Below, one piece after another: positions 1,662 to 59,941 of a stretch of 64,000 bases of DNA. Every line of letters starts with the position of its first letter. Positions within the stretch are counted from its first letter, which is position 1. Source of the stretch: Ruminococcus flavefaciens (GTDB lineage Bacteria; Bacillota; Clostridia; Oscillospirales; Ruminococcaceae); assembly GCA_023662725.1 (NCBI GenBank), contig JAMPIL010000004.1, positions 1 to 64,000 on the forward strand. The letters run 5' to 3'. A program made the position numbers and the translations under genes. The notes beneath the pieces were generated by a model that was given only the letters and a program-made list of their open reading frames with translations, did not search any database and was not told the origin of the DNA.

Positions 1662-4343
1662 TCAGATATTTTCATTTTTCAGTGCGTCAATAGGATTATC
1701 CTTTTTGATTTTGCTCATAGAATACATCATTGTTGCGAAAACAACGATAAATACACTTGAAACAGCGATGGCAATTGCTTTCCATGGAAGCTGGAAGTTG
1801 GTTACGAATCCTTCGGAAACGGAGTGATATATCCAGTAGGTGATAGCAATTGAGACAGGAAGTCCATATAACAGGGACTTTATTCCGTAAAGAACGCACT
1901 CAAAATTCATCATGCGGTTGAATCCCTTGCCGGTCATACCGATAGATTTCAGCATAGCGAACTCACGTCTTCTGAGACTGATATTGGTCGAAATGGTATT
2001 GAAAACATTTGCGGCGGCAATAAGAGAAATAAGAACGATAAATCCATATGCAAATACCTGAACTATTGTAACGATATTTCTGTCAGCTTCAGCCATTTCA
2101 GCGTAATCAGTAATTCCTCCGGCGGGAAGAAGCTTACTGTCAATAAGTCCTGTTAAAGCCGTGTAGCAGTCGGAATGATTTTCGGACTGGATTCTGAAAC
2201 TGAAATACGATCCGATTTCGGCATTTTCGGGAATAATGGCTTCTCTTAAGCTAAATGGATAGATAAGCGCAATATTACCATAGTTTTCAACAAAGAACGG
2301 TGATTCGTGAAGTGTTTTTCCTGATTTGAGATTTGTTGTAATATATGATTCTTCAGATTTTATTTTCAATGAATCTTCAGGATCGTCATTATTTCTGTAA
2401 ACAATATACTCGTTATTTTCTTCGTCATAGTCATATGTTTCAAAGTAGTAGCCATCGACTTTCTTTACCAGGGTATAGTCCGCTTCAAGTTTATCGGAAT
2501 TAAGACCATTGAAAACAAGCATTTTTTGTTTTTCGTAATCAAAAGATGAAAGATTGTCGACAGCAACCGCCTGAGGAGATTCAGGGTTCATAAAATCTTC
2601 TTTATCGAGATGGTTTTCGTCAAGCAGCTTGATAAATTCGTCATCATTTACAAAACAAAGGTTGATAGGCACACCGTTTTCTTCATAGTCAACGAAGTTA
2701 TTTTTCATTTCATCTGAAAGATATTCTCCGTCAATAAAAGCCGAATTGTTAATATTATTGGTATAAACCGCATGATCTACAGTTTCTTCATTTCTTATCG
2801 TTTTAAGAACTTCGTCCTTATCAAATCCTGATAAATCAGCCCATTCAGGTCTATAGACAAGGTCATATCCGTATGAATTGAAAACGCTGTCTGCCATATC
2901 GACAAGATAACCTGTAAATGCAGTTGAGGGAATAAACAGAACAATGCTCATGAAAAGGCTTACTACAGTTGCACGGTATTTCTTTTTGCTTCTCTTATAA
3001 TATTTATGAGCAAGCAGACCGGGAAGTCCGAAAATTTTGCCGATTATCTTAGGAGTTTTAACTGCTCTTTTTTCAGTTTTGATATCATTGCTCTGCCGGA
3101 TAGCTTCAACAGCAGAAATTTTTGTTGCTCTTTTTGACGGTATCCATGATGAGATCAGAACTGTCACAAGCGCTACTATGCAGGCTATCACTACAGCTAT
3201 AAGAGAAACGCAGAGCTTCATTTTAACCGCTCCCGATGCCTGACCTGTAAATGTATCAAATTTATCGCTTATAAGAGTGAGTGTTGTACCGATTCCGGCA
3301 ATTCCGACAATTATTCCAAGCGGAATTCCTATAAGGCTGACTATGCCTGCTTCAAAAAAGACAGTGCGGCGGAGCTGTTTTTTTGTTGCGCCGATAGACG
3401 AAAGAAGTCCGAATTGTTTTGTTCTTTCTGAAACGGATATTGAGAAAGCGTTGTAGATGAGTGAAACAGAGCCGAACATTATTAACAGGATAACAAACGC
3501 CGCAAGACTATAGAGAACGTTGGTGAAACCGTCATACCGCACTACGCCCATACAAGCAAGCAGTTCGTTATTGGTATCACAGTCAAGATGATTGTTCTCA
3601 ATAAATTTGTAAATATCCTTCGGTTTTTTCATACTGAAATAAACGTCATACTGAAAGGATTCCATGTTGTCCATGTCGGGAGCTGTTATAGCGGTAAATC
3701 CGGGAGCAAACCAGCCTTCAAATCCCGGACGCTGAAACAATCCGACAACGGTAAATGTTCTTTTCGCATTAATTTCTATCCTTTCAGCGTCGTCAACAGG
3801 ATTACCGTTGTCATCATAAGCTCGATAAGGATTATTTTGTCCAAGAACATATCCGTCGCTGTCTATACGCTGACCTATTTCAAGCTCAATAGTATCACCG
3901 ACAGAGTAAACAAGTCCGGCATTGCTTGAAAGATGACTCGGCAAAATAATTTCGTTTCCGTTTTCAGGAAGTCTGCCGGATGTAAGATGAATAGAAACCG
4001 TTTCGGCGAAATTTTTATCAGCTCCGAGAATATACATATACGGTTTATCGTCATTTTCACTTTCAATTTTTGCATAGCCTATCTGCTGGGCAAATACGGA
4101 ATCCGAAATCTCTCCTGAATCGTTAATAAGATTGTAAGAATCAAAATCAGCGCCGAGAACATTTCCCTGCCAGTTTCCGTCCTGATAGATAATATTTCTT
4201 TTCATGTAATCAAGAAAGCTTGATATGGACGTTGTTACGGCGCAGATAAGAGCAGTTGAAAGAATTATTCCGATTATCGTAACGATAGTTCGGGTTCTGT
4301 TCTTTTTAAGAGATTGCAGAGTGACTCTATGAAAAATATTCAT
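1662..4343 (-). CDS. FtsX-type ABC transporter permease
   Basis: This 893-residue permease has the MacB/FtsX layout. One membrane segment sits near residues 17-40 after a basic N-terminus (LQSLKKNRTRTIVTIIGIIL). A long outside domain follows, then three membrane segments at about 265-420. A second copy comprises a short TM near 470, another outside domain and three TMs near 755-880. FtsX-type motifs such as ERTKQFGLLSSIGATKKQLR and RRREFAMLKSIGMTGKGF appear after each outside domain. Its start overlaps the ATPase stop by four bases (ATGA), so the two are translationally coupled. Such two-domain permeases beside two-component systems usually export or sense antimicrobial peptides or lipids. 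The substrate cannot be told from sequence. Confidence 0.9.
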   Translation of the reverse strand: MNIFHRVTLQSLKKNRTRTIVTIIGIILSTALICAVTTSISSFLDYMKRNIIYQDGNWQGNVLGADFDSYNLINDSGEISDSVFAQQIGYAKIESENDDKPYMYILGADKNFAETVSIHLTSGRLPENGNEIILPSHLSSNAGLVYSVGDTIELEIGQRIDSDGYVLGQNNPYRAYDDNGNPVDDAERIEINAKRTFTVVGLFQRPGFEGWFAPGFTAITAPDMDNMESFQYDVYFSMKKPKDIYKFIENNHLDCDTNNELLACMGVVRYDGFTNVLYSLAAFVILLIMFGSVSLIYNAFSISVSERTKQFGLLSSIGATKKQLRRTVFFEAGIVSLIGIPLGIIVGIAGIGTTLTLISDKFDTFTGQASGAVKMKLCVSLIAVVIACIVALVTVLISSWIPSKRATKISAVEAIRQSNDIKTEKRAVKTPKIIGKIFGLPGLLAHKYYKRSKKKYRATVVSLFMSIVLFIPSTAFTGYLVDMADSVFNSYGYDLVYRPEWADLSGFDKDEVLKTIRNEETVDHAVYTNNINNSAFIDGEYLSDEMKNNFVDYEENGVPINLCFVNDDEFIKLLDENHLDKEDFMNPESPQAVAVDNLSSFDYEKQKMLVFNGLNSDKLEADYTLVKKVDGYYFETYDYDEENNEYIVYRNNDDPEDSLKIKSEESYITTNLKSGKTLHESPFFVENYGNIALIYPFSLREAIIPENAEIGSYFSFRIQSENHSDCYTALTGLIDSKLLPAGGITDYAEMAEADRNIVTIVQVFAYGFIVLISLIAAANVFNTISTNISLRRREFAMLKSIGMTGKGFNRMMNFECVLYGIKSLLYGLPVSIAITYWIYHSVSEGFVTNFQLPWKAIAIAVSSVFIVVFATMMYSMSKIKKDNPIDALKNENI

Positions 4344-42068: not shown

Positions 42069-42144
42069 CTGGGTGTGGCGCAGTTGGTAGCGCGCTACCT
42101 TGGGGTGGTAGAGGCCGTGGGTTCAAGTCCCGTCACTCAGACCA
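42069..42144 (+). tRNA. tRNA-Pro (anticodon GGG)
   Basis: A full cloverleaf can be folded: acceptor CTGGGTG / CACTCAG, D-stem GCGC with loop AGTTGGTA, anticodon stem CTACC / GGTAG with loop TTGGGGT (anticodon GGG at 42102-42104), T-stem GTGGG / CCCGT with loop TTCAAGT, discriminator A and encoded CCA (42142-42144). It borders the prophage. Confidence 0.95.
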
Positions 42145-42174
42145 TAATCGTATCAGCAATGATACAATGTAAGA

Positions 42175-42205
42175 AATGCACTCACTTGGTGGGTGCATTT
42201 TTTTC
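42175..42205 (+). terminator. Terminator after tRNA-Pro
   Basis: Arms ATGCACTCAC / GTGGGTGCAT (one G-U pair) with a three-base loop, followed by seven T. Confidence 0.75.
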
Positions 42206-47227: not shown

Positions 47228-48876
47228 CCCTCCAAAATTTTAATTGATTTAATTTGCGGATGCGAATTATTGGAACGCCCGGCAAAGGCAAAATAATACG
47301 TACCTTTGCCGACATTGCAATCGGATAAAGTAGTGACAAAAGTTTCGGAATACAGCCATTGAAACGGAATTTTTACCGCCGTGCCATTCTGAATTTGCGT
47401 GTAAACATACACCGAAATTGGCACGTCACTGTGTTCAGGTTTCGGCACAAGATACAGATCGCCGGATTCCGTTGCGCCGGACTTGTAACACATAGAAATC
47501 TGCGAATTACCGGATAGATTCAGTTCCTTGGTGCAGACAACATAAACCACGCCGTCCCAGCCAAAATCGTCCATAGAAAAATGCATCTGATAATCATTGT
47601 CAGCAGAAAGAAAATGGGGATAATTCGCCGAAAAATCAGCTAGAGAATTGTAGGCATTGTTGTAAATCGTGAACAGCTCAGCGCCATATTTTGAAACTGC
47701 ATCGCTGCCTGACGAGAACAGCGTAATACCGTTGTTGTGCAGCGATTCCAGAACGGTGATTCTGTTTTCAAGCATTAAAATGGCATCGTTCTGATTCTGC
47801 TGGTCGTATTGCGTGGAATCACGGAACTGCTGAAATTCAATATCAATGTCAGAAGTTTTATCCCATTTTGCCATTTTCGCCGCAGTAATACTGTTGAGTA
47901 GCGTCAGATTATGATGCCAATGCGCCTGCGAAATGACAGGCTCAACAGATTCCTTGACCGTCCGGATCTCACGATTGACAGAGTCCTCAAATTCCTGCAA
48001 GCCGCCAATTGCCGTCACAAATTCCTCTGTGATTTTTTCAAGCGTCCCAAGATTACTATGATCATGCTTTGACACATTCAGCACATCAATTGCCAAGGCA
48101 AGCACATAGTTCGCCACGGGGTTGCTGCTCATTTCATCAAGATGCGTGTCAATCGCCGTTATGCTGTCCAAAATATCTTGATTTTCATGATTATGGCCGC
48201 TCTCCAAAATCGGAGCAATCTGCGTTTCGATCAGTTTTTCGACATCCGTCGTTTTAGGATAATCCGACATATCAGGCGTTTCGCCGTCCTTGCCATCACG
48301 ACCATCGACGCCGTTTTTACCGTCTGCTCCGTCTTTTCCGTCAACACCATTGACACCATCTTTTCCCGGCATCCCATCCGCCCCTTTCAGACTTTCCAGC
48401 CACTCCGCAAGCGTCCCCACAAAGCCGTTTTCCTGTGCCAATTCATAAGCCGATAGACCGTCCTTACCGTTGACACCTGCCTGAATTTCGGCAATTTTCT
48501 GCAACAACTGCGTATACAGATCGGGAGTGGGTGGAATTGGTGTATCATCATCGCCCACAAATCCCGATGGGCGAATATTCAGCGTAATGGGAACAGTTGT
48601 CGCTCTCACGGTCGTGTCAGATGCCGCATCATAGCCGAAAACCGACATCTTTACCGCACCTGCATGAAGCTCCGCAGGAAGCTTGCAGGACGTTCCGTCA
48701 AAGCCTAAAACGATATTGTAAACCTCATCGCACTGGGAAAACTGCACAACCTTGTGAAACTTTTTCCAATCGCTGTCAAAGGTAAATTTCAGATTGACGA
48801 AAGCAATCTGATGATCGGCTATTACTTCACGCTCCAGAACCTCGATTTTCTGCTGTTTTACGAGAAATTTCCACAT
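47224..48876 (-). CDS. BppU-like baseplate protein with collagen-like repeats
   Basis: The 550-residue protein has an N-terminal BppU domain (about 1-110; QKIEVLEREVIADHQIAFVNLKFTFDSDW, IVLGFDGTSCKLPAELHAGAVKMSVFGYD). A collagen-like Gly-X-Y run spans about 165-200, a coiled-coil/His-rich stalk (about 205-385; HNHENQDILDSI, HDHSNLGTLEKI) follows, and a C-terminal beta-rich domain is probably receptor-binding. The HxH motifs in the stalk could bind metal as in trimeric fibres. Its start overlaps the fibre gene stop by one base. Confidence 0.85.
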   Translation of the reverse strand: MWKFLVKQQKIEVLEREVIADHQIAFVNLKFTFDSDWKKFHKVVQFSQCDEVYNIVLGFDGTSCKLPAELHAGAVKMSVFGYDAASDTTVRATTVPITLNIRPSGFVGDDDTPIPPTPDLYTQLLQKIAEIQAGVNGKDGLSAYELAQENGFVGTLAEWLESLKGADGMPGKDGVNGVDGKDGADGKNGVDGRDGKDGETPDMSDYPKTTDVEKLIETQIAPILESGHNHENQDILDSITAIDTHLDEMSSNPVANYVLALAIDVLNVSKHDHSNLGTLEKITEEFVTAIGGLQEFEDSVNREIRTVKESVEPVISQAHWHHNLTLLNSITAAKMAKWDKTSDIDIEFQQFRDSTQYDQQNQNDAILMLENRITVLESLHNNGITLFSSGSDAVSKYGAELFTIYNNAYNSLADFSANYPHFLSADNDYQMHFSMDDFGWDGVVYVVCTKELNLSGNSQISMCYKSGATESGDLYLVPKPEHSDVPISVYVYTQIQNGTAVKIPFQWLYSETFVTTLSDCNVGKGTYYFAFAGRSNNSHPQIKSIKILEG

Positions 48877-49988
48877 CAGTCAGCACCTCCGTTCGCCTTA
48901 TCGTTCAGATATTTTTCCCAGCCGTTCTCATCGTTGGTGTAATTTCCTGCACCGCAATTTGCTGAAAATGAAAGGGCAATGGACGCATCAGCTGCCGTAA
49001 CAGCACCGTCGCCGTCTGCATCGGGATAATTCACACACCTTGATTCCGTCGCTGCACCGTAGCTGTCAAACCAGTAACGCTTGCCGTCAATGGTGCGGTG
49101 CTGATTGACCAGCTTGCCCTCCGAAAGCGAAATGTAGTACATATTTTCGCCATATTCCACCCAGCCCAGCTGAATATTTCCGTTCTGCGGATCGTAGTAA
49201 TATCGTTTGCCAAATACAGTCCGCCAACCGGTTTTCAGCACGCCATTTGTGGCAAATTGATAGGGAATACCGCCGATTTCCTGTTCACCTGTGAGAGGAT
49301 TTCCGGCAGAATCGTAATAAAAAAGTTCGCCGTCGGCATTGGATGTAAATCGGATCCTGTCAGCGTTATTGAATAGATATTGCCGCAACTTTTTGACTTC
49401 TGCGGTCAGCGTTCCGTCCTTCAAACCGCTGACCTCCTGCTTGATTTGTTCCATTTCATCGAGCATTTCCGAAACCTTACACTTGCCCAGAATGCACCTG
49501 ACATAGCCGCATCTGCTTGTATTTGCCCGATAATCCGTGATATTTGACTGCTTGATCTCAGTTGCTCCTGCATTCAGGCGAACGGCTGCGAGGGTGAGGT
49601 AGGTTCTTGTCTGTGTGTTTGTGAAAGTCGGAATTTGAGGCGTGGTTGCCGCCGTTCCCGCCTTGATTTCAATGTCGCACTTGCGGTAGGTGTCATCTGT
49701 ATCGCAGTAAATTCCGATGATGAGATACTTGCTCATGGATTCGTCTACATATCGGGATAAATCCAGTGTGTAAGAGGAATCGTTGATAAAATAATGCCCA
49801 TTGATCCACGCTTTTCCACGCCCGACCGTGACTTTCAGACCTGTTGCAGCCGCTGTCAATTTGAAGCAGTCGCCGTAATTATCCTGAATCCCGTTGCAGA
49901 TTAGACTGCCGAGATAGTCGCAGAAATTCTCTGCTGTATAGGTTCTGTCGAGCCCTTTCGAGTTGAAAAATCCAAATGAAAATGCCAT
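48876..49988 (-). CDS. Phage fibre-like protein with wall-binding repeats and a dockerin-like loop
   Basis: The 370-residue protein has an N-terminal phage structural part (about 1-200; FFNSKGLDRTYTAENFCDYLGSLICNGI, typical of gut-phage tail proteins). Repeats resembling choline/cell-wall-binding units cover about 238-316 (GWRTVFGKRYYYDPQNGNIQLGW, TIDGKRYWFDSYGAAT). A C-terminal segment at 322-342 contains a perfect EF-type calcium loop: Asp323, Asp325, Asp327 and Asp334 in DADGDGAVTAAD, followed by a dockerin-like helix. Only the first half of a dockerin is clear; the second (about 348-365) is degenerate. It probably binds the host surface. Confidence 0.8.
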   Translation of the reverse strand: MAFSFGFFNSKGLDRTYTAENFCDYLGSLICNGIQDNYGDCFKLTAAATGLKVTVGRGKAWINGHYFINDSSYTLDLSRYVDESMSKYLIIGIYCDTDDTYRKCDIEIKAGTAATTPQIPTFTNTQTRTYLTLAAVRLNAGATEIKQSNITDYRANTSRCGYVRCILGKCKVSEMLDEMEQIKQEVSGLKDGTLTAEVKKLRQYLFNNADRIRFTSNADGELFYYDSAGNPLTGEQEIGGIPYQFATNGVLKTGWRTVFGKRYYYDPQNGNIQLGWVEYGENMYYISLSEGKLVNQHRTIDGKRYWFDSYGAATESRCVNYPDADGDGAVTAADASIALSFSANCGAGNYTNDENGWEKYLNDKANGGAD

Positions 49989-49990
49989 AT

Positions 49991-51112
49991 TTATACCTCC
50001 CTGAATGTTGGTGTCAGGCTTATGCCGTTCTGATCGAAGCTCTCAACCATGCCAATCAACTGTATTTTCGGCTGTATCAAGCCAAATCGCTGATGCTCTA
50101 CCATCACATAATCGCCGACGAAATAATCCGCATTGTAGCGAAACTGCGTGGATTGTACAGCAATCTGCGATTCCGAAGCTGTCAACGGTAAAATAATATT
50201 TTCCTTGCCACGCTCTTTCAGCAGTTCAATATACTCGGATTCAGAAATCGGCTTAGATTCACCATTTTCCTGTTGCTCATCCGCCATGTCTTTAGCGTCT
50301 ACATAGATCTCATAACGCTCTAAAAAAGACGGCTCATCGCCGTCGCAATATGTGGTGCGTTTTCGTTCTTCACCCTCTCCTTTTCCCAGAACATAGGCGA
50401 AATTCTGCTGTGCGGAAATGTCAGAGGAATATGTGAACGACAGCAGATTTGTGTATCTGTCAGAAAAAATGATGTGCGGATTTTCTTCCTGCAAAATGCT
50501 TCTGTCTGCACCTTGTGACAACTCAAAAACCATTCTATATTGACTGCTTGACGGAGTAATTTCCTGCAGACGAATATTTGCCGTGCCGCCGACAAGCGTA
50601 CAAATTTTGTATACCCACTCCATGAGATTTTTGTAGCTGATTTGCATTTGCGTTGTTTTTGCCCAGCATTCACCGAAAACCTCGCCTTTGACAAGTCCCG
50701 GTATCTTGCGGACGCTGTTTTCCATCATGGCGTTTGCGGTGACGACAGCTCTGACGATTGCACCATAGCTCATGGATTGTTGAAAAAGGAACGTCGGATA
50801 AATGATTCGCCGGGACAGCAGTGACATCAGAAATCTGCCTGTTATCGTCAGATAATCGCCGTTTTCTGCGTCGGTTTCAAGCCTGACAGATTCGATGATG
50901 CCATAGTGATTTTTGTCATCATTGCGACTGACAATTTTGCCGATTTTAAACATTTGCAGATTCTGCGGATCGGCTGCAATGTAAATTTCAAACGCTCCGC
51001 ACTGGTAATATTCTACGTCCCAAAGGAGCGAAGAAAAGCTGTCACAGATTGCTTCAAGCGTTATCGTCAAGTCATTTTCATTTGCTGTCATTTTGTAAAT
51101 TTCTATCTGCAT
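49991..51112 (-). CDS. Phage tail protein, Gp37-like (ReqiPepy6 type)
   Basis: The 373-residue protein (WDVEYYQCGAFEIYIAADPQNLQMFKIGKIVSRNDDKNHYGIIESVRLETDAENGDYLTITGRFLMSLLSRRIIYP) matches the Gp37-like family, the tail-tip protein following Dit in many Gram-positive siphophages. Later residues (EVFGECW, YKNLMEWVYKIC) continue the fold. ATG 51112 is preferred because GGAG lies eight bases upstream; the GTG at 51118 is too close to it. Confidence 0.85.
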   Translation of the reverse strand: MQIEIYKMTANENDLTITLEAICDSFSSLLWDVEYYQCGAFEIYIAADPQNLQMFKIGKIVSRNDDKNHYGIIESVRLETDAENGDYLTITGRFLMSLLSRRIIYPTFLFQQSMSYGAIVRAVVTANAMMENSVRKIPGLVKGEVFGECWAKTTQMQISYKNLMEWVYKICTLVGGTANIRLQEITPSSSQYRMVFELSQGADRSILQEENPHIIFSDRYTNLLSFTYSSDISAQQNFAYVLGKGEGEERKRTTYCDGDEPSFLERYEIYVDAKDMADEQQENGESKPISESEYIELLKERGKENIILPLTASESQIAVQSTQFRYNADYFVGDYVMVEHQRFGLIQPKIQLIGMVESFDQNGISLTPTFREV

Positions 51113-51114
51113 AA

Positions 51115-51966
51115 TCACACTCCTAAATAAGCGTTGCGGTGAATAAGCCGGACTTTCAGATTGGAAATACCACCCGATGCACGGAGATAAAATTTGTTTT
51201 CACCCTCTCGCAAGGTTAGCCAAGTTGAACCCGATACAAGCCGATTGATGATATTTGTTGTCACGCCTTCACGCTCCAGCATAACCGTTTTATTGCCGGT
51301 TTTCGTGGTGATCCGGATAATATCTCCCTCCTCAATATCGCCGAGAATCTGCATATATTCGTCGGTTTCAGCGTTGTACAAAGTAGGATTTTTGGCAGGT
51401 CCTCCGCTGATTTCAAGCGTGAACCCAGTTTCATCACCATCGTTCTGAATCGTCATCATGTTCTGTGTGTTGTATTTGCCAAGCGGAAATGGCTTGTCGT
51501 CATCGGGAAAAATGAAGTGAAAAGCACCGAAAACCTGCGAATATTCGGCAATTTGCGTTTCTGTGGAGTACCAATAAATATCCGGGCAGATAATCGAAAT
51601 CTGACCGCTTGTGAACTGCTCGAAATTGCTGATTTCGCAGGTTTCCACGTATCCCTCTGTGTACACATCAATGTTGGGTGTGCGGTAGTAAATCTTGATA
51701 TATCGGGAAGTTTTTACAACTCTGTACAGTTCGTGACGTCGTTTTTCAATACCGATGCCACGCATCTGAAAGGTAATCACAAGGTTACGTTTTTCGATGA
51801 ATGCGTTGTTCAGATAACTGCCGTTCATGCCTGCGTAAGTCGATGTGCTGATCGTTCCGTTTGGAGGATACAGACCGTCTATTTTGGAGGTCATGTACTG
51901 GTTGGCGGTGGTTGTCATATTAAGCTGTTCGCCGTTTTCGTTTTCTAAAATTAAGGTGAATCGCAT
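51115..51966 (-). CDS. Phage distal tail protein (Dit)
   Basis: The 283-residue protein begins with the Dit-type beta-barrel (MRFTLILENENGEQLNMTTTANQYMTSKIDGLYPPNGTISTSTYAGMNGSYLNNAFIEKRNLVITFQM). A C-terminal half similar to galectin-like Dit domains (FTLEISGGPAKNPTLYNAETDEYMQILGDIEEGDIIRI) follows. Dit forms the hub joining tail tube and tip. In a standard phage it directly follows the tape measure gene; here the TetR-GH9 cassette lies between them. GGAGG precedes the ATG. Confidence 0.9.
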   Translation of the reverse strand: MRFTLILENENGEQLNMTTTANQYMTSKIDGLYPPNGTISTSTYAGMNGSYLNNAFIEKRNLVITFQMRGIGIEKRRHELYRVVKTSRYIKIYYRTPNIDVYTEGYVETCEISNFEQFTSGQISIICPDIYWYSTETQIAEYSQVFGAFHFIFPDDDKPFPLGKYNTQNMMTIQNDGDETGFTLEISGGPAKNPTLYNAETDEYMQILGDIEEGDIIRITTKTGNKTVMLEREGVTTNIINRLVSGSTWLTLREGENKFYLRASGGISNLKVRLIHRNAYLGV

Positions 51967-52143
51967 GGATTTGACCTCCTTTCTGAAGATTGACTTTTTC
52001 GAGGATGGGTGTATACTGTAAAAGTGTAAGTTCTCAATAAGTCAAAATTTACATATTATTTTAAGACAAAGGTATTTCACAGTGTTATATTAATTAGCTT
52101 GAAAAATAACGGAATCTACCTACTTTTGATACACTTGATTGGT

Positions 52144-52194
52144 AAAAATAGTAAAAGACATGTTCTCTGAGAAGTCATGTCTTTTACTATTTTT
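52144..52194. terminator. Terminator of the TetR-GH9 cassette
   Basis: Perfect 19-bp arms (52144-52162 and 52176-52194; AAAAATAGTAAAAGACATG on the left) with A/T flanks, overlapping the GH9 stop codon by two bases. It works on either strand and isolates the cassette from Dit. Confidence 0.85.
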
Positions 52195-54556
52195 AATGAT
52201 TCATTTGTCGAATTAAAAGTTGTTTCATAAGGCACAAGTCAAACACATTTAGCATTTCATCTTCACATAAATCTCCTGCTTTCCAGTCAACAAGATGAAC
52301 ATCAGGTACAGCTAACAGCCACTTCTGCATTATGACAACATCCGCAACAGAAAATTTACCGTCTGCATTCACATCTCCCTCTACTCTGGTTGCACTGTAA
52401 GTTTCTGTAAATGAAAGAAGATAAGTAAGCGGAGAGTTCCAGTAAATCGTTACTTCATTAGTGGAATAGCTTTCCTGATTATCAACATAACATTTTCCTG
52501 TAGGCAAACCCGAACAATATGCCTGTGCAGCACTGTCTTCAAGATACGGATGTACTCCGCCGACAAGCATTCCTTTCATGGACTGTTCTTTTGCTATTGA
52601 TGGTCTGTGGTGAGGGTGTTCGGGCGAAACAGTTCCATAGCCTGTAAAATAACATATACCAATCGGATTACAGCCCATAAGATAATTAAGGTTAGAGTTT
52701 GCAGCTTTAATATATTTACTGTCACCTGTGAGAAGATAAGCATTTCCGAGGATAATTCCCTGATTTGCGGCAGTCATATTACTGCCCCAACCGCCTTTGT
52801 AATGCTGAACAACAGACAAACCATAGGGACTTTTTTCTGCATTTCTTACATGAGTATCTGCTCTGCTGATAATTGCATTTTTTGCATTGATATATACAGA
52901 AGATGTTTTATCAATATCTTCCATAGTCGCAATTGCAATATTACCGTAATCACCGAAATTCGCAGAATCAAGTCCGTCCTCCACCGTCATATTTTCAAGT
53001 TTTGTCAGATAGACAGCTTCACCTGTAGCACGCCACATCTGTGCTACTGCCCAGTATCTTTCATCTTTATCGGAACTGTCGCCGTATGAACCCGTTACAA
53101 TATCGGAGGGATTTTCAAAAATAAAATTAGGATTATCCTCTAAGAACTGCCATGCTTTTTCAGCAGAGGAAAGACATTTTTCGGCAAATTCTGTATCAAT
53201 ATCCTGATAAATTTCATAAGCAAGTGCCATTGTACCACAGAAATTCGCCGTTGCAGTTGTGGAAACAGGCGTAACAATCAATTCATCTGTTTCCTCCTCC
53301 GGCATAACATATCCGGGAAATGCCGCACAGGTGACTTTATGATACACACCGCCTGACGAATCCTGCATTTTCAGCATCCATTCAATTTCATATCTTGCCT
53401 CGTCCAGTACGTCGGGAATACCATTTCCGCTTTCAGAAATGCCGATATTGTCACTGAATAATGATGGTGAATTATCATAGGCATAAAGCAAATCAGCAAC
53501 AGTTTTCGCACCTGTTACAGTATATCTGCCGTAATCTCCTGCATCGTGCCAACCACCACTGACATCGATAGTTTTGCTTGTTCCGTAAATCGTTGCTTTG
53601 CTTGTATGACACGCTTTGTGTCCAAAAGTATCATCCTCAACTTCACAACCGCATCTCTGCAAATAAAGCATACGTACAGAATCATCAAGCACTGAATTAT
53701 AAACAGAGTCTGATATTTCAAAAGTATATGAGTTGTCAAGATTTCCGCAAGCAATATAATATTTGCCTGCTTCCTTAACCTGCGTAAAATCTCCCGTTCT
53801 GTTATTTTCACCCGAAAAATCACAGTAATTTTCTTTGGAGAGTTCACCAGTATAAACTACTTCATTTGTATCGGCATTCACAACAGAAAATTCAGTTTCA
53901 TCACCTGCATTGCTGAATACTGCCGTCTTGACAGAATCAGTATGATAACCTACCTGATTTGTAACAATTGACGGCTCATAACGTTTGAATCCTGAATAAT
54001 CAACGTTACTGTCATCAACCAGTTCAACAACAACATTATCAAGATAAATTGTATGTGCTGGTATATCGTCACCGTAGTTGCCACAGTTGAATACAAGCCT
54101 TGACATAATATCCGTGTCATATTCCATTGTGAACGTATAATCAACAGTCTGCGTTTCAGATGTAAGGGAAAGGTCCTCCCAAGTATAAGCCTGATAATTA
54201 CCGCCGTTCTGCTGAATACCGCCCTGTACAGTACAATCTTTATCAGAAGATATGTCATAACTGATACGGTAAACGCCGTTTTTATACAGCGGAATAATAT
54301 CATAAAAAAGCTGTACAGAATAGCTTACTGTGCCTGCCGATGCCACATTAAGTGCAAGTTGTCCGTTTTTCGATGTAACAGAACATTCTCCTCCGCTTTG
54401 ATAATATGTACCCCAACCGCTTGTATTGTAATCGAAAGTTGAATTGCTGACAAGATTTTCATTCTCCGCTGAAACTGGAACAAAGGTAACCACGCTGCTT
54501 ATCATAGCAGCTGCACACAGAAGAGAAATACATTTTTTTAGTACTTTATGCTTCAT
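52193..54556 (-). CDS. Cellulosomal GH9 cellulase (CBM4-like, Ig-like, GH9, dockerin) inside the prophage
   Basis: The 787-residue secreted enzyme has a signal peptide (about 1-30), a CBM4/9-like module (about 33-180; NLVSNSTFDYNTSGWGTYY) and an Ig-like CelD_N domain (about 193-282; IVTNQVGYHTDSVKTAVF). The GH9 catalytic domain is at about 285-718, with Asp338 and Asp341 in SGGWHDAGDYGRY, the His cluster in SPEHPHHRP (near 644-652) and acid Glu701 in NEVTIYWNSPLTYLLSF. A type I dockerin spans 727-787 (GDVNADGKFSVADVVIMQKWLL; second repeat GDLCEDEMLNVFDLCLMKQLLI). All key residues are intact. It hydrolyses cellulose and should join the host cellulosome. It starts by ATGA overlap with a TetR gene. 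Confidence 0.96.
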   Translation of the reverse strand: MKHKVLKKCISLLCAAAMISSVVTFVPVSAENENLVSNSTFDYNTSGWGTYYQSGGECSVTSKNGQLALNVASAGTVSYSVQLFYDIIPLYKNGVYRISYDISSDKDCTVQGGIQQNGGNYQAYTWEDLSLTSETQTVDYTFTMEYDTDIMSRLVFNCGNYGDDIPAHTIYLDNVVVELVDDSNVDYSGFKRYEPSIVTNQVGYHTDSVKTAVFSNAGDETEFSVVNADTNEVVYTGELSKENYCDFSGENNRTGDFTQVKEAGKYYIACGNLDNSYTFEISDSVYNSVLDDSVRMLYLQRCGCEVEDDTFGHKACHTSKATIYGTSKTIDVSGGWHDAGDYGRYTVTGAKTVADLLYAYDNSPSLFSDNIGISESGNGIPDVLDEARYEIEWMLKMQDSSGGVYHKVTCAAFPGYVMPEEETDELIVTPVSTTATANFCGTMALAYEIYQDIDTEFAEKCLSSAEKAWQFLEDNPNFIFENPSDIVTGSYGDSSDKDERYWAVAQMWRATGEAVYLTKLENMTVEDGLDSANFGDYGNIAIATMEDIDKTSSVYINAKNAIISRADTHVRNAEKSPYGLSVVQHYKGGWGSNMTAANQGIILGNAYLLTGDSKYIKAANSNLNYLMGCNPIGICYFTGYGTVSPEHPHHRPSIAKEQSMKGMLVGGVHPYLEDSAAQAYCSGLPTGKCYVDNQESYSTNEVTIYWNSPLTYLLSFTETYSATRVEGDVNADGKFSVADVVIMQKWLLAVPDVHLVDWKAGDLCEDEMLNVFDLCLMKQLLIRQMNH

Positions 54557-55188
54557 TTCAAATCCTCCTTTAAAAATTGCATCATAAAAGTATATACCGT
54601 ATCACGCACTGTAACGGGATAATAAGGTATTTCTGTAAGCTGTATGGCTTCAATTTGTTTCTGACTTTGCATTACATAAGAATCAAGTCCATATAAAAAC
54701 GTAAAAAAAGATACTTGAAATACTCTCTTTTCAGAGGTAGTCATGGAAGGGAAAAATTTATCCAGACATGAAAGAAAAATTTGAATTGCTTTATAAGTAA
54801 TCTTTTGAACCTCAGAAATACGTTCTGTACGGCTGTTTTCTTCAAGCTCAAGATGATTCCATGAAATCAGTTTCAACATTTTTTTCTTGTTTTCAAGAGT
54901 ATCCGAAACAGCAGATGCAAATTCAGAAGCCGTCATATTTTCATTATTTTCTATTTTATGGAGTTCTTCCACCCAATCAGTCAGTTCCTTACAAGTAAGA
55001 CCGAGAAAAATTTCTTCTTTTGTCTTGAAATAATTGTAAATGGAACTGCGTGTCATGCTGATTTCCTGTTCGATGTCACGCATGGAAATATTGCGAAAAC
55101 TCCTGCTTTGAAACAACTTATCAAAAGCGTTTATGATTTCTTCTTTTCTAAAATCCGTCAATTCAAGTGAACCTCTTGACATTACCAT
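54553..55188 (-). CDS. TetR-family regulator of the GH9 cassette
   Basis: The 211-residue protein has an N-terminal TetR helix-turn-helix (about 12-58; RKEEIINAFDKLFQSRSFRNISMRDIEQEISMTRSSIYNYFKTKEEIFLGL). A helical ligand-binding and dimerisation domain follows (about 70-205; LKLISWNHLELEENSRTERISEVQ). It is translated before and coupled to the GH9 gene (four-base overlap). Twin palindromes overlapping its promoter indicate autoregulation of both genes. The inducer is unknown; a cellulose breakdown product or phage-related signal is speculation. GGAGG precedes the ATG. Confidence 0.93.
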   Translation of the reverse strand: MVMSRGSLELTDFRKEEIINAFDKLFQSRSFRNISMRDIEQEISMTRSSIYNYFKTKEEIFLGLTCKELTDWVEELHKIENNENMTASEFASAVSDTLENKKKMLKLISWNHLELEENSRTERISEVQKITYKAIQIFLSCLDKFFPSMTTSEKRVFQVSFFTFLYGLDSYVMQSQKQIEAIQLTEIPYYPVTVRDTVYTFMMQFLKEDLK

Positions 55189-55216
55189 ATCGCCTCCATG
55201 CTTAATAATTTTTAAA

Positions 55217-55275
55217 TTGACAACTTGTCAGTTTAATTCCTTTTTAATTATACACCTAAACTGACAAGTTGTCAA
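55217..55275 (-). promoter_or_regulatory. Consensus promoter with twin TetR operators
   Basis: Minus strand TTGACA (55275-55270), a 17-base spacer and TATAAT (55252-55247). The -35 box is inside the palindrome TGACAAGTTGTCA (55262-55274). A second copy, TGACAACTTGTCA (55218-55230), lies after the expected start point. The two sites sit in 19-bp perfect inverted arms (55217-55235 and 55257-55275) with centres 44 bases apart, about four helical turns. Confidence 0.88.
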
Positions 55276-55546
55276 TATATATTTTTAAGACCATCTTTTT
55301 GTACAAATTTTGCAAGCAGTTTTTGTGGAAAATCAACACATATAATTTTCAATTACACCTATATACTATAAATTAGCATTTTCGGCAACTCGCACAAATC
55401 AGTGGCACATTTTCGTTGTATAACCTATTTTGAGTGGTGTGCAATAAAAAGTATAAAAATTTGAATATAGATCTATTATTTTACAATTTATATTTTACTA
55501 ATTTTCGATTTTGTAAATCAAAGGGGCGACCAAAAATCGCTCCTTA
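55276..55546. other. Gap between the tape measure gene and the cassette promoter
   Basis: AT-rich sequence with no coding potential. Next to the tape measure stop is an imperfect hairpin (GGAGCGA / TCGCCCC on the minus strand, about 55522-55543, one mismatch) followed by TTTGATTT, a possible weak terminator. Nothing else was recognised. Confidence 0.4.
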
Positions 55547-58500
55547 TTACATTTTCAACGCATTCCTTGTCTGCCGATAAATCTCCAGCCGTGACAGTGA
55601 TTTTGGACTATTATTGGTCTGATTCACCGTCCGGCTGTTGTCATAGTTGTTGATAACCGTTCTGGCAGGATTATTTTTCATAGGCGAAGAAATCCCGTCA
55701 AGGCTCAAACCAATATTGGAATCCAGCGACATCTGCATCGCATCAGCAACACCCTCAACCGCCTTGGAAATTAACTTTTTGCTCTTGTTGATTCCCTCCG
55801 CAAGACCGCCGATGAAGTCCGGCATCCAGCTTTCAAAATCTGTTAGCGGACCCTTTTCGGGAACGGAAAAATGCAGATATTCCCAGATTATATTTGCCAC
55901 GTCGCACACGGAATTGTAGAGGTCGGCGATCATATAGCGAATGCCATTGATAAGGTTCTGCATCAGATCATAACCCCACTGCCATGAGGAATTTGCGATA
56001 TTTTTAATGCAGTCAGCGGCGGAATTCAGTCCGCTTGAAACAGCGTCACGAATGCCGCCGATCCTGTCCCACACGCCATTTTTCACATTATCCCAAATAT
56101 TGAAAACAGTGTCACGGACATTATTCATTGCTCCACGAACTGCATCGGGCATGGCATTCCAAGCAGAAGAAACAGCGGATTTTATCGAGTTTACGGTATT
56201 TTTTACGCTGTCAGAAATACTGCTCCAAGTAGCAGTAATCGTATTTTTCATACTCGTCTGACCGTCAGAAATAAAGTTTTTGATTCCGTTCCACACACTT
56301 GAAATAACATTTTTAATGCCGTTTGTCGCTGTGGCGATTGTGTTCTTAATTAAATCCCAGCCCGATTTCACGCCGTTTCCGATGCCTGTAAGAACAGCGT
56401 CCATATTTGTTTTGATGTTGTTCCAGACGGTTGTAACTTCTGTCAGCGTGTTCTCCATAAACGTCTGCACAGTAGTTACAATATTGGACATGGCGTTCTT
56501 GAATGTGTCCGTCAGAGCCGTTGTGATGTTCGTTCCGAATGTGCTGAGTGCGTTATCCACCATTCCTGCGTTGGCAGTAATTCCGTCCGCAAGTCCTTGC
56601 ATAAAGTCCGGCATCCAGGATTCAAAATCGGTCAGAGGGCCTTCGTCCGGCACGGAAAAATGCAGGAAACTGCGGATTTTGTCCGCCACACCTGTGACAG
56701 CATCAGTTACCTTGCTGATACAGCTTTTAATACCGTCCACAATGCCGTTGATGATATCAGCACCCCAGTTCCACGCCTCACTTGCAAGATTTTTAACAAA
56801 GCTTACAGCATTATTAAAGCCGTTCACAATTGTATCTTTGATACCAGTTATTGTATTGGAAATTGCCGATTTTACGCTGTTCCAGATGTTAGACACAGTT
56901 GTTTTGATGCTGTTCATTACGTTTGTAATGGTCGTTTTGATAGCGTTCCAGATATTCGATACAGTTGTAGAAATGGCATTTAAAATACTTGAAACTGTAC
57001 CGCTAATCGTATTCCAGACTGAAGAAATGACAGACCAGATAGAATTTAAAATGCCCGAAATAAAGCCGGATATAGCAGTCCACACGGTTGAAATTACATT
57101 ATGAACAGTATCCATAGCCGTGGAAATAGCGGTAGAAATTGCATTCCATATCGTTTCAAAGAACGATTTTATGCCTTCAAGAATTGGTGTAATAAATTCA
57201 ACAATAGCGTTCCATATGGTTTGGATTTTTTCGGAAATCCAGTCCATAACATTGCTGATAATAATGTGAATCGCCTGAAAAATGGTTTCAAAAAGGTATT
57301 TAAACGCCTCTAAAAGCGGAGAAATAAACTCATAAATCGTATTCCAGACCGTTGAAATTGTGGTATATATCGCATTCAGCACTGTGGATATTGCCGTAGA
57401 AACAGCGTTCCATACAGTTGTAATTACCGTCTGAATAGCTGTGATTTTCTCCGAAATATAGCCATATATCGTATTCCAGATACCTATAAAGAAGTCTTTA
57501 ATTGCAGTCCAAATGGTGGTGAAAAACGTCTGTATTCCTGTGAAAATATTTGTAACAAAAGCTGTGATGCTGTTCCAGATTCCAACGAAAAAGTCCTTGA
57601 TTGATGTCCAGACCTCGCTCCATGAAGTACCAAACCAACCGAGAAATACATCTGCGATACCTTCGAGGGTGCTTATAATATTGGAAAAGCAATTCTTGAT
57701 AAAGTCCCATATTCCGACAAAAATGCCCTTGATACCGTTCCACATCTGCTCCCAGTCGCCTGTGAACAGCCCGATAAAAATATCCAAAATGCCGAGAATC
57801 ACATCAACGATAACATCGAAAGTTTCCGCAATATATGTGAAAACTCCTTCAAACCAAGGAGCAAGAATATCACACAAGCCCTGCCACACTGATTTTACAA
57901 CATCGCCGAAATCCTCAAAATTAAATCCGAGAGCATTTAATCTATCGACAATTCCCTGCGTCAGATTTGAAAAAGTAGCTTTGATTTTCTCCCAAATCGC
58001 AATGATGCTGTTTCTGAAATCCTCGTTTGTATTCCAAAGATGCACGAAAGCAGCCACAAGAGCCGCAATCGCCGCAACAACAGCAACCACAGGAGCGGAA
58101 ATTCCACCAATCGCACCGCTTAATGCAGTAAATGCACCCTTTACTGATGAGATGATAGCAGGTCCCTTTGCAATTAACTGCATCAGTCCGCCAATGCCGG
58201 ACGTGACTTTTCCAATTACAATTAAGACAGGTCCTAATGCTGCCACAACAGCAGCGATTTTGATAATCATATTTTGTGTTTCAGAATCTAAGCCGTTGAA
58301 CTTGTCAATCCATTCCTGGATTTTCGTAATAATGGGTGTTAAATGCTGTGCCAAAAGCTGTCCTAAAGATGTCATCAGAACATCAATGGACGACTTTAAT
58401 TTCTCAATAGAACCGCCGAAACCGCTCATCATAGCCTCTGCCATTCTGTCCGTTGTGCCGGAGCAGTCGGACAGTGACGTATTTAATTTTCCCACATCTT

Positions 58501-59941
58501 CCGGTGCGGTGTTGATCAAAGCTAACCACGGAGCCATTTGATTTTTACCGAAAATAGCGGACGCCGCAGCGATCTGCTCCGATTCAGAAAGCTTGGAAAA
58601 AGCCTTGTTTAACTCAGATTGAATGGCAACCGAATCCTTCATGGAACCGTCTGCATTTGTTACAGAAATGCCCAGCTGCTCCATCATCGCCGCACCGTCT
58701 TCCGCCGGACTGACAAGTCTTGCAAGACCTGTTTTCAGGGAATTTGCAGCGACGTCCGCCTCAATTCCGTTGTTCGCCATAACGCCCATATATAGGGCTG
58801 CGTCGTTGATATTGTAGCCTGCTGATGAGAAAATCGGGGCTGCAACAGACATCGCACTTGAAAGGCTGTCCACGTCCAAAGCGGAGTTATTGCAGGCTGC
58901 CGCAAACACATCAGCGTAGTCTGCCGCCTCGTCAAAGGAGCCGTGAAATCCGTTGATTGTGGCAACCAATCCGGCGGAAACGGTGTCCAGATTGCCACCC
59001 TCTCCGGCAGTCAGATTCATGGCAGGTGCAAGGGCAGAAGCAGCTTGCTCGGCGGTGAGACCGGCTCTTGCAAAATTTAGTGCGGCATTTGCGGCGTCAC
59101 TCATACCAAATGTGGAGTTGGCGGCGGCATTTTTCATCGCCGTATCAAGCATTTCCGCCTGTTCTTCGGTGTTTTCCATGGTGGAGTTGACAAGCTGCAT
59201 GGTCTTATCCACATCGGCAAATTTCTTTGCTGCTGTGCCGCCAAGTGCTGTAATGCCTGCGGTCAAAGGCAATAATTTCTGACCAGTGCCGGAAATTTTA
59301 TCACCGGCATTTTGCAGTTTCCCACCAACATCTCCGATTTTTTCAAGAGCGGATTTAGAGTTTTCCGCCTCACGCTGCAGGTTCTGAAGTGCCTGTTCTG
59401 TTTCTATGATTTCACGTTGGAGAGCGTCATATTGTTCCGGTGAAATGGGGTGACCAAATTCTTCATCGACATCCTGAGCCGCTTTTTTCAGGTTTTCCAA
59501 ATCCGTTTCTGTATCGGAAATTTCCTTTTGCAGAGCGTCGTATTTTTCCTGAGAAATTTCGCCCTTTGCAAGCTGTTCATCGGCATCCTTGGATTTTTCC
59601 TTGAGGTCTTTTAGTTTGGTTTCCGTTTCACTGATTTTTGTTTTCAGTGGGTCGTATTTGGCTTTCCATGCGTCGTATTGATTTGCAGATTTGGCTGCTT
59701 CCTCATTTGCTTTTTTGAGCGTTTCCAGCTTGTCGCCAGTTAAGGAAACTGCATCGGCAAGGAGCTTCTGTTTCTGTGAGAGAAGCTCTGTATTGGTCGG
59801 GTCGAGTTTTAGAAGTTTTTCTACGTCTTTTAGCTGTGTCTGCGTGTTCTTGATATTTTTATTGACGCCTTCGAGAGCCTTACTTAGCTTAGTTGTGTCG
59901 CCGCCGATTTCAACGGTTATCCCTCGAATTCTGTTTGCCGT
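55547..59941 (-). CDS. Phage tail tape measure protein with apparent ACG start
   Basis: The reading frame is open from ACG 59941 to the TAA at 55547, 1464 codons. The first residues after ACG (ANRIRGITVEIGGDTTKLSKALEGVNKNI) are the family's usual N-terminus, which normally starts with Met. GGAGGTG lies seven bases upstream and a TGA closes the frame just before. The protein has a coiled coil (about 20-220), a TMP domain (about 215-420; FADVDKTMQLVNSTMENTEEQAEMLDTA), membrane-like segments near 580, and about 15-20 Trp-containing repeats (IWNAI..VI.TVWNTI type). The block HFSVPxxGPLTDFESWMPDF occurs twice. It sets tail length and forms a channel at infection. No ATG, GTG or TTG occurs before codon 148. 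Confidence 0.9.
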   Translation of the reverse strand, partial: TANRIRGITVEIGGDTTKLSKALEGVNKNIKNTQTQLKDVEKLLKLDPTNTELLSQKQKLLADAVSLTGDKLETLKKANEEAAKSANQYDAWKAKYDPLKTKISETETKLKDLKEKSKDADEQLAKGEISQEKYDALQKEISDTETDLENLKKAAQDVDEEFGHPISPEQYDALQREIIETEQALQNLQREAENSKSALEKIGDVGGKLQNAGDKISGTGQKLLPLTAGITALGGTAAKKFADVDKTMQLVNSTMENTEEQAEMLDTAMKNAAANSTFGMSDAANAALNFARAGLTAEQAASALAPAMNLTAGEGGNLDTVSAGLVATINGFHGSFDEAADYADVFAAACNNSALDVDSLSSAMSVAAPIFSSAGYNINDAALYMGVMANNGIEADVAANSLKTGLARLVSPAEDGAAMMEQLGISVTNADGSMKDSVAIQSELNKAFSKLSESEQIAAASAIFGKNQMAPWLALINTAPEDVGKLNTSLSDCSGTTDRMAEAMMSGFGGSIEKLKSSIDVLMTSLGQLLAQHLTPIITKIQEWIDKFNGLDSETQNMIIKIAAVVAALGPVLIVIGKVTSGIGGLMQLIAKGPAIISSVKGAFTALSGAIGGISAPVVAVVAAIAALVAAFVHLWNTNEDFRNSIIAIWEKIKATFSNLTQGIVDRLNALGFNFEDFGDVVKSVWQGLCDILAPWFEGVFTYIAETFDVIVDVILGILDIFIGLFTGDWEQMWNGIKGIFVGIWDFIKNCFSNIISTLEGIADVFLGWFGTSWSEVWTSIKDFFVGIWNSITAFVTNIFTGIQTFFTTIWTAIKDFFIGIWNTIYGYISEKITAIQTVITTVWNAVSTAISTVLNAIYTTISTVWNTIYEFISPLLEAFKYLFETIFQAIHIIISNVMDWISEKIQTIWNAIVEFITPILEGIKSFFETIWNAISTAISTAMDTVHNVISTVWTAISGFISGILNSIWSVISSVWNTISGTVSSILNAISTTVSNIWNAIKTTITNVMNSIKTTVSNIWNSVKSAISNTITGIKDTIVNGFNNAVSFVKNLASEAWNWGADIINGIVDGIKSCISKVTDAVTGVADKIRSFLHFSVPDEGPLTDFESWMPDFMQGLADGITANAGMVDNALSTFGTNITTALTDTFKNAMSNIVTTVQTFMENTLTEVTTVWNNIKTNMDAVLTGIGNGVKSGWDLIKNTIATATNGIKNVISSVWNGIKNFISDGQTSMKNTITATWSSISDSVKNTVNSIKSAVSSAWNAMPDAVRGAMNNVRDTVFNIWDNVKNGVWDRIGGIRDAVSSGLNSAADCIKNIANSSWQWGYDLMQNLINGIRYMIADLYNSVCDVANIIWEYLHFSVPEKGPLTDFESWMPDFIGGLAEGINKSKKLISKAVEGVADAMQMSLDSNIGLSLDGISSPMKNNPARTVINNYDNSRTVNQTNNSPKSLSRLEIYRQTRNALKM

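Follow-up and report, generated by a model that had tools for sequence, protein, structure and literature searches.

INTRODUCTION

Cellulase genes are already known from viruses of the rumen. Yan et al. 2023 (PMC10465536) reported that viral contigs from the rumen carry active cellulase genes of families GH9 and GH5, and they describe a GH9 enzyme, flanked by viral genes and active on carboxymethylcellulose, that is 79.5% identical to an enzyme from a Ruminococcus metagenome-assembled genome. Here, we analyzed a 64,000-nucleotide stretch of Ruminococcus flavefaciens contig JAMPIL010000004.1 (hereafter, the window), in which an operon encoding a TetR-family regulator and a GH9 cellulase with a dockerin lies between the genes for the tail tape measure protein (TMP) and the distal tail protein (Dit) of a prophage. 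As in PMC10465536, a phage-borne GH9 is thus found that is close to a Ruminococcus enzyme. However, the published contig is incomplete and the accessible passages mention no regulator, cargo slot, or antisense promoter for it, whereas the window prophage can be followed up to its edge repeats. The author of a preliminary description of the window knew of no phage-borne dockerin cellulase; an active phage-borne GH9 was, however, already published in PMC10465536, in whose text the word dockerin has 0 occurrences.

Two further systems are close to what we describe. Morons have been described as typically lying antisense to lytic genes (PMC7067206), and in the noncontiguous operons Tha/Ith of S. 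aureus prophages (PMC11087260), lysogeny and lysis transcripts are opposed. The slots of the sister phages analyzed here are similar in that they hold promoter-bearing genes antisense to a phage operon. They differ from both in that many phages share one fixed TMP-Dit slot, in which an antisense promoter recurs and the cargos are numerous and unrelated, and the window operon differs in being in the sense orientation.

Among the articles listed by our literature search, which had most subscription journals outside its coverage, none was seen to describe a TMP-Dit cargo slot in such phages or a prophage-borne dockerin cellulase. Defence hotspots in phages and their satellites were reportedly described by Rousset et al. 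2022, a study that PMC11364771 has among its references. The hotspots reported there share with the present slot a fixed phage locus and a turnover of defence and other cargo (PADLOC matches to SduA, SoFic, and PDC-S26 occur in the slot), and differ in belonging to another phage group and another locus, ours being within the tail module. Integron cassette arrays are similar in having a slot-side promoter, single-gene units in arrays, and an imperfect hairpin repeated at the units. Unlike in integrons, no integrase scored over the cut-off in 125 genomes, no attC R boxes were seen beside the hairpin on reading, the junctions vary, and the units have their own promoters. We regard the slot, the hairpin in the TMP gene, and the counterparts outside phages as new, and the GH9 operon as a variant of known phage cargo.

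RESULTS

A self-regulated GH9 operon in the prophage tail module

We consider it probable that the operon is lysogenic-conversion cargo. On this view, a siphovirus of Ruminococcus acquired a self-regulated TetR-GH9 operon of chromosomal type, which came to occupy a cargo slot that already existed between the TMP and Dit genes. The preliminary description had placed a GH9 and TetR unit between these two genes, at 52144-55275, a span that matches the extent of the operon. PHROGs and Pfam matches confirmed the flanks on one contig, with TMP (55547..59500, minus strand) on one side and Dit (51115..51966, minus strand), followed by a Gp37-like minor tail protein gene (49991..51118, minus strand), on the other.

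The cellulase gene (52193..54556, minus strand) encodes 787 amino acids, which comprise a signal peptide (read by eye), a CBM4/9 module, a CelD_N Ig-like domain, the GH9 catalytic domain, and a C-terminal dockerin. The Pfam model Glyco_hydro_9 is covered in its entirety (E 6e-93), and CelD_N and CBM_4_9 are also matched. The dockerin scored 20.0 bits in the single-protein scan, under the cut-off of 22.9, whereas the scan of the whole genome gave it 25 bits and placed it above the cut-off. Residues D338, D341, and E701, which we take to be the GH9 catalytic residues, align to identical residues in PDB 5e2j. The enzyme is therefore complete, with intact catalytic residues and with CBM4-like and dockerin modules, as had been proposed. 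Among its relatives, the closest named organisms belong to Ruminococcus.

The regulator gene (54553..55188, minus strand; 211 amino acids; Pfam TetR_N and TetR_C_34) overlaps the GH9 start codon in a bicistronic arrangement. It is preceded by a sigma-70-type promoter, TTGACA-17-TATAAT (55247..55275, minus strand), that matches the consensus at 12 of 12 positions, and two palindromic operators surround this promoter (55213..55279, minus strand). More specifically, the exact palindrome TGACAASTTGTCA occurs twice, each time within a 23-nt inverted repeat (arms 55213-55235 and 55257-55279). No further exact copy exists anywhere in the host genome, and sites with at most one mismatch numbered 4 per strand there, against 7 per strand for a reversed-pattern control. 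On the 3' side of GH9, a terminator hairpin with perfect 20-bp arms (52143..52195, both strands) reaches ~-24 kcal/mol on either strand, a stability attained by 0 of 200 shuffles. The regulator, promoter, operators, and terminator that had been read from the letters of the window were thus all recovered. We also considered TetR as the usual partner of GH9 and rejected this, as 13 of the 16 loci (L042-L057) that encode its ~40% identical relatives have, by eye, aldo/keto reductase genes close by. Three of these loci (L045, L049, and L055) also have, in the vicinity, a flavodoxin-like gene that includes a dockerin-like segment.

A location in the tail module, together with a sense orientation that would permit cotranscription with the late genes, could also suit an enzyme that helps the phage itself, e.g., a tail or lysis-stage depolymerase that clears plant polysaccharide around the host. 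We find this very improbable: the protein has a signal peptide (by eye) and a dockerin and matched no PHROGs phage family, the operon has its own TetR gene, promoter, and terminator, and its same-operator counterparts lie away from tail genes.

The host genome (3.1 Mb, a draft of 70 contigs) yielded 13 GH9 matches, one of them being the enzyme studied here, and 80 matches to dockerins; 8 cohesins, all in one cluster, scored above the cut-off. With a dockerin in the protein and cohesins in its host, the window GH9 has the attributes of a cellulosomal subunit. Since the host is already so well equipped, the gain that the operon would bring is likely modest and incremental.

The TMP-Dit junction is a cargo slot

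According to the preliminary description, Dit normally follows the tape measure gene directly. This does not hold in the phage group studied here. We assembled 109 TMP-Dit junction loci, of which 14 came from a first search for relatives, 49 from IMG/VR, and 45 from a wider search of the genus, the window being the remaining one; the genomes are species representatives, and many are drafts. After 8 unresolvable junctions were set aside, 82 of the 101 resolved ones proved to be filled, with lengths of 371 to 4229 bp. The other 19 measured only 3 to 14 bp and were thus nearly empty; these empty ones came largely from related phages. Some loci represent the same phage twice, and the removal of near-identical ends left 66 distinct filled slots. 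Three of the 82 filled junctions (L037, L039, and L040) are outside intact phages.

The cargo of the filled slots amounts to 109 open reading frames (ORFs) of at least 70 amino acids in 77 families, defence genes included, and 106 of these ORFs are antisense to the tail genes. The 3 sense ORFs are the TetR and GH9 genes of the window and a doubtful ORF call in L113. In scans of 69 of the 77 family representatives, the PADLOC models matched include SduA, PD-T4-3, UzuA, SoFic, and PDC-S26, each in one member, and Pfam revealed transporters, nucleases, and HepT-like, Fic, and NUDIX proteins. An antisense gene also occupies the slot in the Ruminococcus phage records PV036433 and PV036441, which are described as complete genomes. 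In both phage records (L355 and L356), another antisense gene (2003-2980, minus strand) stands just before TMP, perhaps in a second slot.

Four phages (L026, L260, L261, and L095) carry unrelated cargo between borders homologous to those of the window. Neither border is assigned to a strand. The Dit-side border (51967..52021) is shared with L026 and, to within a few bases, with L261 and is shorter in L260 and L095, while the TMP-side border (55520..55546), which includes a hairpin at 55521-55545, is shared with L026, L095, and L261 and not with L260. Comparison with L026 delimits the payload to about 52022-55519. The operon has its own promoter and terminator within a phage operon and is absent from the same site in close sister phages. 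These observations, together with the phage genes that flank the operon on either side and the unrelated cargo that the nearest sister phages have at this position, support the earlier view of the operon as a moron, i.e., self-regulated phage cargo.

The borders also speak to the chance that a chromosomal TetR-GH9 operon was misjoined into the prophage contig during assembly. The draft state of the genome, in 70 contigs, and our failure to find another phage with the operon would fit such an error. Against this, both borders match sister phages and stop close to the start of their unrelated cargo. In addition, the next closest GH9 of the host is only 63% identical and lies on a different contig, so the window GH9 is not a collapsed copy of it. 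We regard an assembly artefact as very improbable.

The slot carries a recurrent antisense promoter

Beside Dit and facing into the slot, the window has a sigma-70-type promoter, TTGACT-16-TATACT, on the plus strand (51990..52017). When the last 100 bp before Dit were scored, an antisense promoter of at least 10 of 12 was present in 51 of the 66 distinct right ends; the opposite strand gave such a score in only 4 of 66, and shuffled sequences did so in 8.5% of cases. A score of at least 11 was reached in 20 of 66 ends, compared with 0.5% of shuffles. Aligned on the -10 box, which by construction raises the information at the -10 itself, the ends hold 0.79 bits per base in the -35 zone and 0.80 just before the -10, against 0.13 from 25 bases into the cargo leader. 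In the window, this promoter now reads toward the GH9 terminator from its distal side, and the terminator hairpin has the same stability on the strand concerned.

Homology of the window with L026 and L261 runs from Dit through the promoter for 53 to 56 bp, and that between L026 and L261 extends to about 80 bp from Dit. The homology of the window with L260 and L095 stops at 35 bp and ~15 bp, respectively, short of the -10. An ungapped test of homology length was uninformative because of small indels, and BLAST extensions were used instead; among nine pairs compared as having different cargo, L107-L279 in fact has a gene in common. At the right border, 1417 of 1865 alignments between slots with unrelated cargo stop within Dit or fewer than 30 bp before it, 381 end 40 to 60 bp out, and 37 end beyond 60 bp. 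The endings at 40 to 60 bp coincide with the distal edge of the antisense -10 box, whose median distance is 42 bp. Given these mixed endings, descent of the promoter apart from the cargo is demonstrated for close relatives only.

At the left border, homology between slots with unrelated cargo mostly ends at the TMP stop codon (median -6 bp); of 1933 alignments, 4% extend as far as 15 bp. The hairpin that follows the TMP stop codon was accordingly rejected as a general border, being common to close relatives only. Terminal inverted repeats around the cargo were likewise rejected as a general feature; they were found in 6 of the 66 distinct slots, close to the 6.75% obtained for 400 mismatched pairings of left and right ends.

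A hairpin is written into the 3' end of the TMP gene

An imperfect hairpin lies within the 3' coding end of TMP (55586..55637, minus strand) and is kept at synonymous sites mainly where the slot is filled. In resampling of synonymous codons against a codon background of five window genes, 66 of 81 TMP ends fell at or below the 5% level. The mean z was -5.4 in the 64 filled loci versus -1.3 in the 17 empty ones, and stem pairs were kept in 95.3% and 70.6% of cells, respectively. Read against the codon table, the commonest stem breaks in empty loci are at synonymous positions. These patterns suggest that a DNA hairpin at the TMP end is kept beyond the need of the protein, mainly where cargo is present. 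The contrast between filled and empty loci may be partly phylogenetic, through the clade structure of the empty phages. A search of Rfam returned nothing meaningful.

Slot borders also occur outside intact phages

The last 42 residues of TMP were matched in 47 of 125 genomes of the genus. In the fetched loci, we found 27 copies of the hairpin region, 17 of which are preceded by an open frame of fewer than 50 codons. The hairpin is retained in 12 of the 17, a count biased upward because copies were found by their likeness to the hairpin, and some of the 17 may be frame-shifted TMP genes. Four loci (L340, L341, L350, and L040) have one or two antisense genes between a TMP end and a Dit start, amid genes that look chromosomal by eye. 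The solo cassette of L350 adjoins genes that resemble, by eye, an anti-plasmid SMC system.

At least two such units stand in a row in L037 (5229-8368), L335 (6676-9062), L336 (3714-6847), and L338 (4154-8450). The arrays of L336 and L338 adjoin TMP-coding sequence, L269 has an internal copy of the TMP end, and one join in L037 is identical at two places; four further loci (L342-L345) were read in part only. In genome G126, by reading, three neighboring genes from the slot of a phage (L276) closely resemble genes that adjoin copies of the TMP end on a different contig (L335). Junctions at a fixed base, in arrays as in solo cassettes, were considered and rejected. Since the junctions vary, much of this material may stem from prophage decay or from homologous recombination.

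The integron integrase model TIGR02249 scored over the cut-off in 0 of the 125 genus genomes (the IMG/VR phages were outside this search). Weak matches were present in 121 of the 125 and in all 14 controls, none of which passed the cut-off, so that the search had no positive control. The R boxes of attC sites read GTTRRRY and RYYYAAC; neither was seen beside the TMP-end hairpin, by reading only and with no attC finder run.

Two accounts of the slot can be set against these data. We somewhat favor an ordinary point of tolerated insertion, at which any gene survives unless it cuts the late mRNA, cargo being swapped by homologous recombination at the conserved TMP and Dit ends and the hairpin only stopping or protecting antisense RNA. 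Conserved ends around variable cargo, array junctions that are not at one fixed base, the absence of an integron integrase over the cut-off in the 125 genomes, and the precedent of noncontiguous operons are all consistent with this. By itself, however, it leaves unexplained the solo genes that short TMP and Dit ends enclose in apparently chromosomal surroundings, the arrays with repeated ends, and the TMP-end copies that keep the hairpin without a long upstream frame. A bolder proposal, which we put forward tentatively and think rather unlikely, is that the slot is the phage end of a Ruminococcus cassette-exchange system of its own kind. Units of promoter, one gene, and TMP-end hairpin would stand singly or in arrays in chromosomes and pass into prophages by exchange at the hairpin within the TMP gene, which would act as single-stranded DNA, and GH9-TetR would be a chromosomal operon that entered this traffic.

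The operon has counterparts in other genomic contexts

Close relatives of the TetR protein (E up to 1e-52) occur in only 2 further genomes among the 125 of the genus (L234 and L235), and a third counterpart, L144 (CANOIR010000038.1; TetR 58%, GH9 72%), was found via GH9. In all three, TetR precedes GH9 and the same promoter lies between two operators, in three differing neighborhoods. The GH9 frame is split in L234 and L235, and the TetR match of L235 is limited to residues 51-210. A tblastn search of L144 with phage proteins gave, besides GH9, only TetR and a weak helicase match and no tail gene; L234 and L235 showed no tail gene by reading frames (the first 9 kb only for L235) or by BLAST with the TMP end and Dit start. 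Contexts are called chromosomal by eye, from reading frames.

Among 109 GH9 loci scanned, 29 of which (L066-L094) have only ~1.5 kb of flank, a TetR neighbor was present in L144 alone, and TMP, Dit, and the Gp37-like gene were matched in 0. The closest protein among the matches listed from a database of 5.8 billion sequences is 88% identical over 83% of the query and lies on a 12.9-kb contig. As the pair recurs with the same operators at three places that look chromosomal, the operon was probably already complete when the phage acquired it. This operon appears to be of chromosomal type rather than a copy of the other GH9 genes of the present host. The preliminary description would have been overturned by the pair sitting at this same chromosomal spot with phage genes on one side only; no such case was seen, and the pair does exist at other, apparently chromosomal places.

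The prophage and its neighborhood

A 58-bp exact direct repeat marks the prophage edges. Its left copy (42143..42200, no strand assigned) adjoins a tRNA-Pro gene, and its right copy is beyond the window, at 96567-96624 of the 99,735-base contig. As the right copy is embedded in a longer, ~87% alike stretch that belongs to another prophage, a decayed relative, at its left end, the repeats place the attachment site only approximately. The decayed prophage (contig 96741-99678; L010) has a recombinase end fused to an amidase start, as well as a holin; a second GH9-dockerin gene directly adjoins this holin and is cut by the contig end.

This neighbor bears on whether the window prophage itself has ceased to make virions and is a decaying remnant used by its host. 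Such grounding would accord with a sense-oriented terminator in the late operon, with the decayed relative abutting the prophage, and with the solo slot-type cassettes outside phages. We nevertheless hold it to be unlikely. The recombinase, lysis, tail, head, portal, and terminase-like frames are full length by eye, the edge repeats are exact, and no broken gene was seen (not all genes were compared with relatives).

Two other regions of this prophage deserve mention. Inside the edge repeats, near the lysogeny end, lie two genes that resemble type III restriction-modification genes by eye only (contig 89909-94154; L010). In the tail module, a protein with choline-binding-like repeats (48876-49988, minus strand) is 88% identical in a sister prophage (contig C2); it ends, by eye, in a single dockerin-like calcium-loop repeat that the Pfam dockerin model does not match.

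DISCUSSION

If the operon is lysogenic-conversion cargo, TetR probably represses its own promoter in the lysogen until a ligand, perhaps a plant-derived compound, lifts the repression. The GH9 enzyme would then be secreted, and its dockerin would join the host scaffoldin. In the sister phages, the cargo is antisense to the tail operon and is apparently read from the antisense promoter beside Dit. By analogy with the noncontiguous operons of S. aureus (PMC11087260), such cargo may follow the same logic and could be on in lysogeny while the late genes are off. The window operon does not share this arrangement; it lies on the same strand as the tail genes, keeps both slot borders, and has its own promoter, and its terminator should act in both directions.

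Several points weigh against our interpretation. The window operon is the one clear sense occupant of the slot and breaks its rule, and a sense orientation with a terminator in the path of the late tail operon may cost or impair the phage. Away from the close relatives, each cargo could bring its own promoter. Moreover, pattern-based searches of IMG/VR with GH9 or TetR revealed no second phage with the operon, no INPHARED record covers 80% of it, and it is in no other filled TMP-Dit slot.

A temperate phage with a complete, regulated operon for a dockerin-bearing cellulase means that parts of the cellulosome can travel by phage. Beyond this, what looked like an odd insert becomes a testable rule for Ruminococcus phages. 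Their tail module has a slot at a constant position, which combines an antisense promoter with a hairpin encoded in a structural gene and accommodates dozens of cargos of unrelated kinds, and parts of its borders recur outside intact phages. The slot is a place to look for new defence genes, and it poses the question of how cargo enters and leaves.

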